Assembly: GCA_021741145.1 (NCBI GenBank)
Contig: JAIOYK010000002.1
Location: 36,170 to 100,169 of the forward strand
Direction of reading: 5' to 3'
Length of the DNA stretch: 64,000 nucleotides
From: Rhodospirillum sp.
GTDB lineage: Bacteria; Pseudomonadota; Alphaproteobacteria; Rhodospirillales; Rhodospirillaceae
In this document: positions 5,199 to 21,317 of the stretch, in pieces
How positions within the stretch are numbered: position 1 is the first letter of the stretch
How the letters are laid out: each line of letters begins with the position of its first letter
Made by a program: the position numbers and the translations under genes
The notes under the pieces: generated by a model
What the model was told of the DNA's origin: nothing
Seen by the model: the letters and a program-made list of their open reading frames with translations, nothing else
Database searches by the model: none

Positions 5199-7382
5199 TT
5201 ACCCCCGGACGGTGGCCAGGAAGCTTGCCACGTCCGCGCGCAGGCGGTCCGAGGCCTGTGCCATGGTTCCCGCGGACGTCAGAACGTCGCCGGCGGCGTG
5301 GCCCGTGCGGTCCACGGTTTCTGTGACGCCCGCGATGTTCGTCGAGACCTCCCGCGTTCCCCGTGCGGCTTCCTGAACATTGCGTGCGATTTCCTGGGTC
5401 GCGGCTCCCTGTTCCTCCACGGCGGAGGCGATGGTGGTGGAAATGTCGCGGACTTTGTCGATGACGACGCCAATGTTTTCGATGGCCGTCACCGTTCGCT
5501 TGGTTTCATTCTGGACGCTGGTGACCTGGGCGCCGATGTCCTCGGTCGCCCGGGCGGTCTGGTTGGCCAGGGACTTCACTTCATTGGCCACGACCGCGAA
5601 GCCCTTGCCAGCGTCCCCGGCCCGGGCCGCCTCGATTGTCGCGTTGAGCGCCAACAGATTGGTTTGTTCGGCGATATCGGTGATCAGATTCACGACCTCG
5701 CCGATGCGGTTCGCCGCCTCGGCCAGGGAGCGGACCATTGTGATGGTGTCTTGTGCTTCCATCGACGCATCCGAAGCGATGGTGGCTTCTTCCGTAACCT
5801 GTCGGCTGATTTCGGAAATGGACGAGGAGAGTTGCTCCGCCGCGGCGGCGACGGTTTCCACGTTCCGGGTCGCCGATTGAGCGGCTTGGGACACAATGTT
5901 GGCTTGGTTTCCGGCATCCCGGGTCTCGTCAGCCATGGAACTGGCGGTCGTTTGCATCTGGTTGGCCGAGGACGCGACCTCATCCACCACACCCATGATG
6001 CTGGCCTCGAAGTTGTCGGCGAGTTGGCGGCGCGCGGCGACTCGCTCGTTTGCGGCCCGTGCCTCGGCTTCCCGCTGTTCCACCTGCAAGGCTTCGACTC
6101 GCAGGGCATTGTCCTTGAAGACCCGCACGGTCTCGGACATTTGATTGACCTCGTGGACCTTCCCGCCATCGGGGATGTCGACGGTCATGTCGCCTTGCGC
6201 CAGCTTCTCCATGGCGCGGGTCATCGCGACGATGGGGGTGGCGATGCCGCCGGCGACGAACCACATGACGACAATCGCCCCAACCGCCACGGCCAAGCCG
6301 ACGAGAACGGCCAAGGTGATGGAATCGGAGGATTTCTCGGTCAATTGGGCGCTCAATCGGTCGGCTTCGGCCATGACAACCGATCTGGGAACCTCGATCA
6401 GAACGGACCAGGGCTTTCCCGTTTCGCCCAATTTGATCGGGGCGAAGGTCCGAAGCGTGTCCCCTTGCCAGTCGGAGGATTCGCCGCCGGATTGGACCGT
6501 GGCGAGATCCCGCCGCCAATCGCCGCTCTCCTCCTCATAGCTTTGTCCGATCCGGGAAGAGTCACCGCTGTGGGCCACGACCAGACCCAGGTCGGAGAGG
6601 ATGACCACCTTGTTCCGGCCCTCGAAAAGGCGTGTGCTGACGCCATTCGCAAGATTTTGAACAAAGTCGAGATTGAAGTCCGTACCGGCCACGCCCTTAA
6701 AGACGCCGTTCACGACGATGGGCACCGATAGGGTCGCCAAATATACTTGCTTGCCTTGGACGATGTAGGGGAGAGGTCCGAGGACGCTTTCCTTTCCCGT
6801 TTCCTGGGGGCCGATAAACCATCCCCCTTTCATGACCCCATTTGGATGGAGGTCCTTACTGTCGTATTCAACGAGCGGCTGCATGGCGATCTTCCCGACG
6901 CTGTCGCGGTTCCAATAGGGGATGAACCGGCCCGTCTGATCCGTTCCCGAAGCCGTGTTTCCCTTGAACGCCGTGTCCTTTCCATCCAACGCATCGGGGC
7001 TCCATGCCGTATACGTGCCATTGAAGCCGGGATTCTCCTGGAGAACCCGAAGCAGAATGTCGTTGATTAAAGGACGACGATGACCAACTTCCACGCCTCC
7101 CTGGTCGACCGGGCGAGCAATCATGGCGAAGGCGCCGGCCATGGCCCGGGCATTGACAAGGGCGTTGTCGAATTCGGACCGTAAAAGACCGGCCTGGGTG
7201 TTGGCCAAGTTGGTCATGGCCCCACGGATATCGGTGTCAAGAATCGTGGAGGTGCGTTCAATGACAAGCGCATTGTTCGATTGAGATGAGAGAACTCCAA
7301 AGATCTCGATAATCGCCACGGCGGAGATGAGGCACAATCCAGCATAAAAGGCGGTCTTGGCCTTTATGGTTTTGATATACAT
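5199..7382 (-). CDS. Methyl-accepting chemotaxis protein with periplasmic Cache sensor
   Basis: 727 aa from the ATG at 7382, which has GGAG eight bases upstream; the longer open frame back to 7505 is AT-rich leader. Order: TM1 (about 8-30), a double-Cache-type ligand-binding region (about 60-340), TM2 (about 355-380, ending [12 protein letters not shown]), HAMP, a methylation/coiled-coil region and the highly conserved signalling hairpin tip ([20 protein letters not shown]). It would couple an unknown small-molecule ligand to CheA/CheW and the flagellar motor. I see no C-terminal CheR-docking pentapeptide. Confidence 0.92.
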
Positions 7383-18322: not shown

Positions 18323-19042
<720 letters not shown>

Positions 19043-19302: not shown

Positions 19303-20712
19303 ATGTCCGACGTTAAGACCATCATGGAAATGATTAAGGAAAACGACGTCAAATTCGTCGATTTCCGCTTCACCGATCCGAAGGGCAAGTGGCAGCACAC
19401 CGCCCAGTACGTGACCACCATCGATGATGAGACCCTGACCGAGGGGATCATGTTCGACGGTTCGTCCATCGCGGGTTGGAAAGAGATCAACGAATCCGAC
19501 ATGATCCTGAAGCCGGACCTCGCGTCCGCGGTCATGGATCCGTTCGCGGCCCAGCCGCAGCTGATTCTGTTCTGCGACGTGATCGAGCCCGCCACCGGTC
19601 AACTCTATGATCGCTGCCCGCGGTCGATCGCCAAGCGCGCCCTGGCCCACATGGCGGCCACCGGCGTCGGTGACACGGCCTACTTCGGTCCCGAAGCCGA
19701 ATTCTTCGTCTTCGATGACGTGCGTTTCGAAGTCACGATGAACAAGGTCTCCTACGAGTTTGAATCCGAAGAAGGCCCCTACGTTTCCGGCAAGCTCTTC
19801 GACGAGGGCAACTACGGCCACCGTCCGGATGTCAAGGGCGGCTACTTCCCGGTCCCGCCGGTGGATAGCGCCACCGACCTGCGCGCCGAGATGCTGACCA
19901 CCATGGCCGAAATGGGCATGCCCGTGGAAAAGCATCACCACGAGGTGGCCCCGTCGCAGCATGAGCTGGGTGTGAAATTCAACACCCTGATCGAATCCGC
20001 CGACGACATGCAGAAGTACAAGTACGTCGTCCACATGGTGGCCCACGCCTATGGCAAGACCGCCACGTTCATGCCGAAGCCCCTCGCGGGGGACAATGGC
20101 TCGGGCATGCACGTCCACCAGTCCATCTGGAAAGACGGTAAGCCCCTGTTCGCCGGGTCCGGATACGCCGACCTGTCCGACATGGCGCTCTACTACATTG
20201 GCGGCATCATTAAGCACGCCAAGGCCCTGAACGCCTTCACCAACCCGTCCACCAACTCCTACAAGCGTCTGATACCCGGTTTCGAGGCTCCGGTGCTGCT
20301 GGCCTACTCCGCCCGCAACCGCTCCGCCTCTTGCCGTATCCCCTACGTCGCCAGCCCCAAGGGCAAGCGCGTCGAGGTCCGTTTCCCGGATCCGACCGCC
20401 AACCCCTACTTGGCGTTCGCGGCCATGTTGATGGCTGGCTTGGACGGCATCGAGAACAAAATCCACCCGGGCGATCCGATGGATAAGAACCTGTACGACC
20501 TGCCCCCCGAGGAGTTGGCCAACGTTCCGACCGTCGCCGGGTCCCTCCGGGAAGCTCTGCAGTCCCTGGACGCCGACCGGTCCTTCCTGACCAAGGGTGG
20601 TGTGTTCTCCGACGACATGATCGACTCCTACATGGCCTTGAAGTGGGACGAAGTGTATAACTTCGAGCATTCTCCCCACCCCATCGAATACAAGATGTAC
20701 TATTCCTGCTAA
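19303..20712 (+). CDS. glnA: Glutamine synthetase type I
   Basis: 469 aa, the standard GSI length. Beta-grasp domain with [10 protein letters not shown], catalytic motifs [23 protein letters not shown] and [12 protein letters not shown], and [17 protein letters not shown]. Tyr398 in NLYDLPPEE is the probable adenylylation site used by GlnE. It converts glutamate, ammonia and ATP to glutamine. Chosen start ATG at 19303; an open frame continues upstream to 19159 without family similarity. Ends 107 bp before a strong terminator. Confidence 0.97.
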
Positions 20713-20818: not shown

Positions 20819-20846
20819 AGGCCCCGATTGTTCGGGGCCTTTTTCG
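20819..20846 (+). terminator. Rho-independent terminator of glnBA
   Basis: Perfect 9-bp stem AGGCCCCGA/TCGGGGCCT with a TTGT loop, followed by TTTTT. It separates glnA from the downstream sigma-54 promoter. Confidence 0.92.
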
Positions 20847-20976
20847 TTGGGGCGTTCTCGTGGGGAGGATCCTCATTTGGCATCGCGCTTCACGACTGTT
20901 CGCGATTCGCAAAAGGGTTTGAGGGCATCGGAATTTTTCAGGTATTGGAATCATTGTAAGAAATTTTTCGATTGGT

Positions 20977-20993
20977 TTGGCACGACGGATGCT
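20977..20993 (+). promoter_or_regulatory. Second sigma-54 promoter, downstream of glnA
   Basis: TTGGCACGACGGATGCT carries a perfect -24 box (TTGGCACG) with GG at 20979-20980 and GC at 20991-20992, exactly ten bases apart. It is nearly identical to the glnB promoter. There is no plus-strand gene downstream before a terminator at 21164, and the next genes are on the minus strand. Confidence 0.78.
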
Positions 20994-21003
20994 CATGTTT
21001 GCA

Positions 21004-21164
21004 AACCCTCCTCCTCCTCCCGATCAATCAAGGAGGGCTTCTCGGAGGCGTTGGACTTGGGTCCGTCGGAGGTATCAAACCGCACTTCCCCGCGGCGAAC
21101 CGGTGGGTTTTATTCAGCGCCTTGCGAATAGGGGCGATCCGTCAAGGACCGCCCCTATTTTTTC
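21004..21164 (+). ncRNA. Candidate sigma-54-dependent small RNA with anti-Shine-Dalgarno tract
   Basis: The interval runs from the expected start (about 12 bases after the GC of the sigma-54 promoter) to a rho-independent terminator, giving an RNA of about 160 nt. Near its 5' end is a CCTCC-rich tract (21006-21021) complementary to ribosome binding sites; it can pair internally with AGGAGGG at 21031-21037. No ATG lies in the interval. A TTG-started frame of 26 codons (21051-21131, GGAGG two bases upstream) is the only coding alternative and looks weak. The RNA itself is inferred from promoter plus terminator, not recognised as a known family. Confidence 0.5.
21127..21164 (+). terminator. Rho-independent terminator of the candidate small RNA
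   Basis: A 14-position stem (one A-C mismatch) with arms 21127-21140 and 21146-21159 and loop GTCAA, followed by a run of six T. The orientation is plus strand. Confidence 0.85.
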
Positions 21165-21188
21165 CTTTAGACATTTGGATTCGGCTTT

Positions 21189-21317
21189 TTAGTGGGAGAT
21201 GGATCCCAGGGCCGATAGCACTGCCATGCCAAGGGCACTGCCCAGCAGCAGAATGGCGGGCTTGACGATGGTCGACGCCATGGTATTTCCAGCGCGCTCA
21301 TAGACAATAAATCGCAT
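21189..21317 (-). CDS. 42-residue single-pass membrane peptide
   Basis: The frame starts MRFIVYERAGNTM and continues with one hydrophobic helix (residues about 18-38, IVKPAILLLGSALGMAVLSA). The ATG is preceded by a strong AGGAG at good distance, which is why I call it coding despite its size. It faces the candidate small RNA tail to tail. I do not recognise the family; it could be a small subunit or regulator of a membrane complex. Confidence 0.55.
   Translation of the reverse strand: MRFIVYERAGNTMASTIVKPAILLLGSALGMAVLSALGSISH

Follow-up and report, generated by a model that had tools for sequence, protein, structure and literature searches.

A predicted sigma-54-type family of sibling small RNAs in Rhodospirillum and Pararhodospirillum, probably under the control of LuxO-like regulators

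What is the short transcription unit that appears to follow glnA in Rhodospirillum sp., and which regulator would switch it on? The window, the whole stretch of 64,000 nucleotides (64 kb) analyzed here, had been read at this place as encoding a nitrogen-status RNA that is activated by NtrC, is encoded with glnBA, and represses translation through a CCTCC tract. Comparison with related genomes points to another answer. The interval 20899-21165 is probably one of seven loci for sibling small RNAs (sRNAs) with predicted lengths of roughly 160-200 nt. A LuxO-type protein is their likely activator, so that they would work in the manner of the Qrr RNAs of Vibrio, and they probably repress mRNAs through a C-rich loop. 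The features of the window on which this reading draws are collected in Table 1.

Table 1. Positions of the predicted RNA locus, its control elements, and the genes compared with it in the window.
Feature	Position	Strand	Basis or remark
LuxO-like sigma-54 activator A, 466 aa	865..2265	-	likely regulator, or one of two
sigma-54 promoter before glnB	18624..18638	+	for comparison; TGCC-N9-GGCA at 18509-18525
glnA	19303..20712	+	neighbor, outside the proposed system
Predicted activator-binding dyad (UAS) TTCGCGATTCGCAAA, LuxO-UAS-like	20899..20913	+	perfect YTYGCRNNNYGCRAR
sigma-54 promoter TGGCACG-N4-ATGC (-24/-12)	20978..20992	+	such an element at 7 of 7 family loci
Predicted small RNA, about 160 nt	21004..21165	+	inferred start, fold, model R1 (98.3 bits)
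CCCTCCTCCTCCTCCC tract, anti-Shine-Dalgarno-like, mostly private to the window copy	21006..21021	+	reading, count, comparison
AGGAGGG, pairs with CCCUCCU at the tract start	21031..21037	+	predicted fold
5' arm of stem P1	21042..21055	+	arm-swap test
5' arm of stem P2	21063..21069	+	
Conserved loop motif AACCGCACTTCCCCGCGGC, predicted target-pairing segment	21078..21096	+	
3' arm of stem P2	21100..21106	+	
3' arm of stem P1	21113..21126	+	
Intrinsic terminator, stem-loop (21128-21157) then six T	21128..21163	+	reading, fold

The basic layout of the locus is as originally described: a sigma-54 promoter, a predicted transcript (21004 to about 21165) without ATG, and a rho-independent terminator, all behind the glnA terminator (a stem at 20820-20839 followed by five T) that lies between glnA and the RNA locus. 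Perfect matches to the sigma-54 pattern TGGCAYRNNNNWTGC number two in the 64 kb: the promoter at 20978-20992 and another at 18624, ahead of glnB. Tolerating one mismatch gives eight sites where 7.05 would be expected, and information therefore comes from the perfect sites only. The RNA start is placed near 21004, about 12 nt past the GC of the -12 element. The predicted RNA folds at -65.5 kcal/mol, compared with -56.4 kcal/mol (sd 4.2) for shuffled sequences, which gives a z-score of -2.18, with 5 of 200 shuffles folding as well. A simple terminator scan did not return 21128-21163, probably due to a mismatch in the stem, but both the fold and the RNA model R1 described below show the terminator. 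No conserved small ORF was found inside the RNA. On the opposite strand, a 42-aa ORF for a predicted membrane protein (21189-21317 (-)) faces the window RNA. A 44-aa membrane-type ORF adjoins one R. rubrum copy (copy c); the two share 32% identity at E 6.3, which is not significant.

Seven related predicted sRNA loci with a common promoter, loop motif, and terminator occur in four genomes of Rhodospirillum and Pararhodospirillum: two in the window's own genome (G000, Rhodospirillum sp.), three in G001, which is taken to be R. rubrum, and one each in Pararhodospirillum oryzae (G013) and P. photometricum (G030). Several sibling copies are therefore found in two of the four genomes and a single copy in each of the others. 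BLASTN with window positions 20940-21180 (241 bases) against 61 relatives yields a 40-base match on another contig of the own genome (E 3.2e-4) and a 30-base match in P. photometricum (E 0.005); the second own-genome locus and the P. photometricum locus have a common layout of sigma-54 promoter, 124-128 nt, motif, and terminator. A match in G023 was discarded as an AT-rich chance match. A pattern search for the motif in 73 genomes at the family level finds 30 places, six of which are members of the RNA family, including a tandem pair in R. rubrum and one locus in P. oryzae; at the other 24, neither strand shows a promoter.

The RNA model R1, built from six loci, separates these loci from the rest of the order. 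Among 297 order genomes, scores of 98-135 bits are reached by the six model loci and 50.4 bits by a seventh locus, after which the best match drops to 37.7 bits. The seventh, R. rubrum copy c, lies outside the model and has a TGGCACG-N4-ATGC promoter together with the loop variant ACACCUCCCC. Of the six model loci, the window copy diverges most (98 bits against 118-135), and its 98.3 bits come from a model of which the window sequence is itself part. Weak matches at E up to 0.1 are present in 87 of the 297 genomes; among 30 R1-matched loci examined, the motif is found in family loci only, and two further matches at about 31 bits proved to be terminators only. A class-level search of 385 genomes at E up to 1e-4 adds matches of 34.9-39.2 bits in three genomes, and in this sample, for which the matches listed do not include G001, G013, or G030, none exceeds 39.2 bits outside the own genome. 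A scan for the exact motif in named genomes, a set that may lack close relatives of the window's genome, gives 12 loci, one with a promoter (P. oryzae) and 11 without. The plasmids searched for the RNA gave no match.

At gathering score, the only Rfam family recognized within the window is a tRNA. For six loci searched at E up to 5, no Rfam family lies at or above its gathering score and Qrr is not among the matches; the best sub-threshold match is BcKCsr2 to R. rubrum copy b (27.6 bits, gathering 40, E 0.0092). With six relatives of like layout, the view of the locus as a predicted sigma-54-driven, terminator-bounded non-coding RNA is strengthened, and the existence of such an RNA family, taken alone and judged from sequence, is highly probable.

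All seven loci carry the sigma-54 promoter, which in P. oryzae reads TGGTACA-N4-GTGC and is less near consensus, and the terminator ends in at least five T in six copies and in four T in copy c. The nearly invariant segment across the seven copies is AACCGCAC(AC)YUCCCCGCSGC, which is enclosed by stem P2, with a further stem, P1, outside it. Within it, AACCGCACTTCCCCGC is identical in six of the seven copies, and copy c has a two-base insertion and a T-to-C change. The loop middle ACUUCCCC is mostly unpaired in most predicted ensembles (0.6-0.9 in the window copy), with three of its bases at only 0.3-0.5 unpaired in the ensemble predicted for copy a. The sequence of P1 varies among members. Because the MAFFT alignment places P1 of the window copy out of step with the other copies, this stem was assessed by swapping arms between copies; native arms pair at a mean of -25.4 kcal/mol versus -21.1 kcal/mol for swapped arms, and 10 of 5040 assignments are at least as good as the native one.

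The CCTCC tract, originally proposed as the key element, does not share this conservation: it is not kept across the seven copies, and the conserved element is instead the AACCGCACUUCCCCGC loop. In the window, the tract is above chance, with two overlapping matches to CCTCCTCCTCC there and none elsewhere against 0.10 expected. The 5' end is GAUCUCUGUUCCUU-like in three copies, CUCUCCUCCU in R. rubrum copy c, and CCCUCCUCCUCCUCCC in the window copy, and consists of unrelated sequence in P. oryzae and P. photometricum. The CCUCCUCCC motif is found in the window copy alone and is not conserved family-wide, copy c having CUCUCCUCCU. The accompanying suggestion that AGGAGGG masks the tract appears to hold in part. 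In the predicted fold, AGGAGGG pairs with the first CCCUCCU, but its pairing is limited to that stretch and the remaining CCUCCUCCC sits in an 18-nt loop, so that masking would be partial.

The place behind glnA is likewise peculiar to one genome. When the regions downstream of glnA are compared in 12 genomes, the RNA unit is present in the own genome alone, and the 11 others have no such unit within 637-700 nt after glnA (637 nt covered in P. oryzae), which does not bear out the description of the RNA as encoded with glnBA. A loose sigma-54-like match without the motif lies 9 nt after glnA in G012. Other copies have other neighbors. A threonine ammonia-lyase gene adjoins both the second own-genome copy and the R. 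rubrum a/b pair, which on the strength of this common neighbor look orthologous. The P. photometricum copy sits after a gene for a YfbR-like hydrolase, and the P. oryzae copy, by eye, after a similar gene.

Control by NtrC was assessed with the sequence TGCC-N9-GGCA and with the enteric NtrC consensus. Each of the four genomes has TGCC-N9-GGCA upstream of glnB, R. rubrum two of them; its location and its resemblance to the enteric sequence make it likely the NtrC site of these genera; the sigma-54 pattern before glnB is matched only in the own genome. Perfect TGCC-N9-GGCA occurs at none of the seven RNA promoters. With one mismatch it is found at two of them and also in 19% of 3000 random windows, a background level. 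Enteric-type NtrC sites at the RNA promoters are at background as well. What most of these promoters carry instead is a LuxO-like dyad. On these sites, the proposed nitrogen control is not supported, and a LuxO-type regulator is a likelier switch for the window locus than a shortage of nitrogen.

The dyad YTYGCRNNNYGCRAR is perfect at five of the seven family promoters, located at -79 to -146, and has one mismatch at copy c and three, a background level, at R. rubrum copy a. The window holds one perfect match (20899-20913) and, with one mismatch allowed, six matches versus 8.5 expected. The 2.3 Mb of R. rubrum sequence scanned, 53% of the chromosome, contains eight perfect sites. Among the 131 sigma-54-like sites in this sequence, a perfect dyad accompanies one, which is RNA copy b, and a one-mismatch dyad three, namely copy c and two others whose -12 elements are poor. 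In 2000 random R. rubrum windows, a perfect dyad is found in 1 and a dyad with one mismatch in 24, numbers that are descriptive, the pattern having been derived from the family promoters themselves. The rarity of YTYGCRNNNYGCRAR, together with a palindrome at the usual enhancer distance, would be hard to get by chance. The dyad resembles the published LuxO enhancer (UAS), which is given as TTGCAWWWTGCAA in the accessible text of the source (PMC10162802). The best mismatches of the family dyads to this Vibrio consensus range from 1 to 3; the dyad is TTGCAGACTGCAA in P. photometricum and TTGCGAATTGCAA in P. oryzae, and those of the Rhodospirillum copies have three mismatches.

Candidate readers of this dyad are at hand. 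Each of the four RNA-bearing genomes encodes two LuxO-like sigma-54 activators, A and B, and an Hfq gene. The best full-length match of A in NCBIfam is LuxO (601 bits; next AtoC, 382), and among PDB sequences it is LuxO 5ep0 (445 bits; next protein, 305). Since A misses the NCBIfam LuxO equivalog cut-off (601 versus 800 bits), it is termed LuxO-like and not called LuxO. Taken separately, the final 62 residues of A score 69.2 bits to LuxO, with the next family at 20.5. The comparison of DNA-binding ends covers nine ends from 48 sigma-54 activators (15 in the own genome, 14 in R. rubrum, 8 in P. oryzae, and 11 in P. photometricum), for 38 of which a protein sequence was extracted. In the own genome and R. 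rubrum, the ends of A (69.2 and 69.3 bits) and B (36.1 and 37 bits) rank LuxO first, and as a control the NtrC, FlbD, and NifA ends of R. rubrum rank their own families first.

The two regulators differ in distribution. LuxO-like proteins (E up to 1e-110 to A) are present in 91 of the 297 order genomes. Many further relatives exist: of 8000 candidates scored, 5380 reach E up to 1e-130, and some, among the matches listed, are named 'repressor protein LuxO' by their sources. LuxO homologues are reported in most Proteobacteria, according to the accessible part of one paper (PMC524169). Orthologues of B (75-100% identity, at least 746 bits) coincide with the RNA, occurring in the same four of 297 genomes and no others; the next best genome gives 495 bits, located at that genome's A match. 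The co-occurrence of B and the RNA is confounded by shared descent, which could alone explain it. Hpt matches, 11-18 per RNA-bearing genome and some of them on short frames, make a LuxU-like relay possible. In R. rubrum, a hybrid histidine kinase with a receiver and an Hpt match (L148:3524-6328 (-)) is encoded within about 10 kb of B (L147:15742-17178), and an ABC-type substrate-binding protein (L148:819-1862 (-)) is also encoded near B. A layout of kinase and substrate-binding protein is reminiscent of LuxP/LuxQ; here the link is one of proximity only.

The promoters, the dyad, the conserved loop, the stems, the terminators, the family itself, and the two LuxO-like activators and Hfq of each genome form the sequence-level basis for a Qrr-like reading. 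A signal would lead to phosphorylation of a LuxO-like protein, which would bind the YTYGCRNNNYGCRAR dyad and open the sigma-54 promoter. Probably together with Hfq, the RNA would then pair through its exposed AACCGCACUUCCCC loop with ribosome-binding regions, and in the window copy the CCUCCUCCC segment would also pair with such regions. This pairing would repress translation; repression by a C-rich segment, mainly the conserved loop, is plausible. A target scan of 2.3 Mb of R. rubrum returned 316 sites of at least 10 pairs near possible starts, a noisy outcome taken as GC-rich chance. Pairing with the leaders of luxO-like genes (28 comparisons, 100 shuffles each) follows no pattern common between genomes: the 5' segment of the window copy with its own A leader is beaten by 0 shuffles, two other pairings by 2, one by 4, one by 5, and the other 23 by 7 to 86.

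The same family could be driven by another enhancer-binding protein that reads a TTGC/GCAA-like dyad, with the LuxO-like proteins serving other genes. This is rather unlikely, although some points speak for it: each genome has 8-15 candidate sigma-54 activators, the Rhodospirillum dyads carry C at position 3, unlike the Vibrio UAS, and A occurs in many genomes without the RNA (91 of 297 genomes versus four), which is a point against a LuxO-type activator. The family ranking of the DNA-binding ends argues the other way, since those of A and B from two genomes rank LuxO first (69 and 36-37 bits) and the NtrC, FlbD, NifA, and FhlA-like ends rank other families first; one more end also ranks LuxO first, at only 20.6 bits and level with other families. 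The question of the activator also bears on the nitrogen-status RNA of the original prediction, activated by NtrC and acting through the CCTCC tract. Its place behind glnBA, its sigma-54 promoter, and a tract above chance would all fit, yet TGCC-N9-GGCA is found before glnB in 4/4 genomes and in perfect form at 0/7 RNA promoters, six of the seven copies lie away from glnA, and the tract is not conserved, all of which makes this account improbable.

A further account concerns what the RNA does. Rather than pair with mRNA, it might titrate a protein or another RNA as a sponge, and the CCU repeats at the divergent 5' end of the window copy may mark a specialized or decaying sibling. The window copy is indeed the most divergent model locus (98 versus 118-135 bits), the conserved loop could be a protein site, and the target searches found no target. 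There is little likelihood in this account all the same: the loop is C-rich in 7/7 copies with its middle largely unpaired in most predicted ensembles, the copy c loop ACACCUCCCC is still anti-Shine-Dalgarno-like, and the window copy retains a perfect promoter and dyad. Activation by a LuxO-like protein and repression through the C-rich loop remain the preferred reading.

Four known types of RNA invite comparison. The Qrr family, which is included in Rfam, is alike in its sigma-54 promoter, a LuxO-like activator with a LuxO-type DNA-binding end, a similar upstream dyad, more than one sibling copy per genome (true here of two genomes out of four), a terminator, and the presence of Hfq. It differs in that the present RNAs match no Rfam family at gathering score, have the dyad YTYGCRNNNYGCRAR rather than the exact TTGCAWWWTGCAA, keep a C-rich loop as their conserved segment, and are hosted by alphaproteobacteria. 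NrsZ, a sigma-54/NtrC-dependent sRNA of Pseudomonas, is alike as a non-coding RNA (predicted for the window locus) with a sigma-54 promoter; the window family has no NtrC-type site, no Rfam match at gathering score, and a different context. The CCUCCUCCC-motif RNAs of alphaproteobacteria recall the window copy, which has CCUCCUCCC in a predicted 5' hairpin loop, but the motif is not kept in the window RNA family, whose window promoter is of the sigma-54 type, whereas known CCUCCUCCC-motif RNAs use other promoters. An sRNA from the glnA 3' UTR, presumably GlnZ, is like the window RNA found downstream of glnA; the window RNA has its own promoter behind the glnA terminator and is not conserved at glnA. 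Release of an sRNA from the glnA 3' UTR is described in the accessible text of PMC9731577, and the Qrr family is described as conserved in Vibrio in that of PMC12559287.

In the accessible parts of the open-access literature, among the matches listed for LuxO in Rhodospirillum, alphaproteobacteria, or Azospirillum, for Qrr outside Vibrio, for R. rubrum sRNAs, and for NrsZ, no such system is described, and among the matches listed no output is named for the LuxO-like regulators of Rhodospirillales. The RNA family offers an output for these regulators, which are common in the order (91/297 genomes). If the reading is true, Qrr logic is no peculiarity of Vibrio, and the gene behind glnA is a signaling RNA rather than a nitrogen RNA. 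A more tentative proposal, for which the case falls somewhat short of even, is that purple alphaproteobacteria possess a complete LuxO-to-sigma-54-to-sibling-sRNA switch outside Vibrionaceae, that the dedicated paralogue B arose together with the RNA family, and that the other genomes with LuxO-like proteins may control further sigma-54 sRNAs, which would make Qrr-type logic general.

R. rubrum, a laboratory organism, offers a testable set of promoter, dyad, RNA, and regulator pair. Genes for an FhlA-like sigma-54 activator and a Cache-type sensor kinase lie 1-4 kb from its copy c (G001:C2:397404-400444; L144, L145, L065). After the terminator region of copy c, two more near-copies of the hairpin unit can be made out by eye (L065 about 5327-5453, G001).
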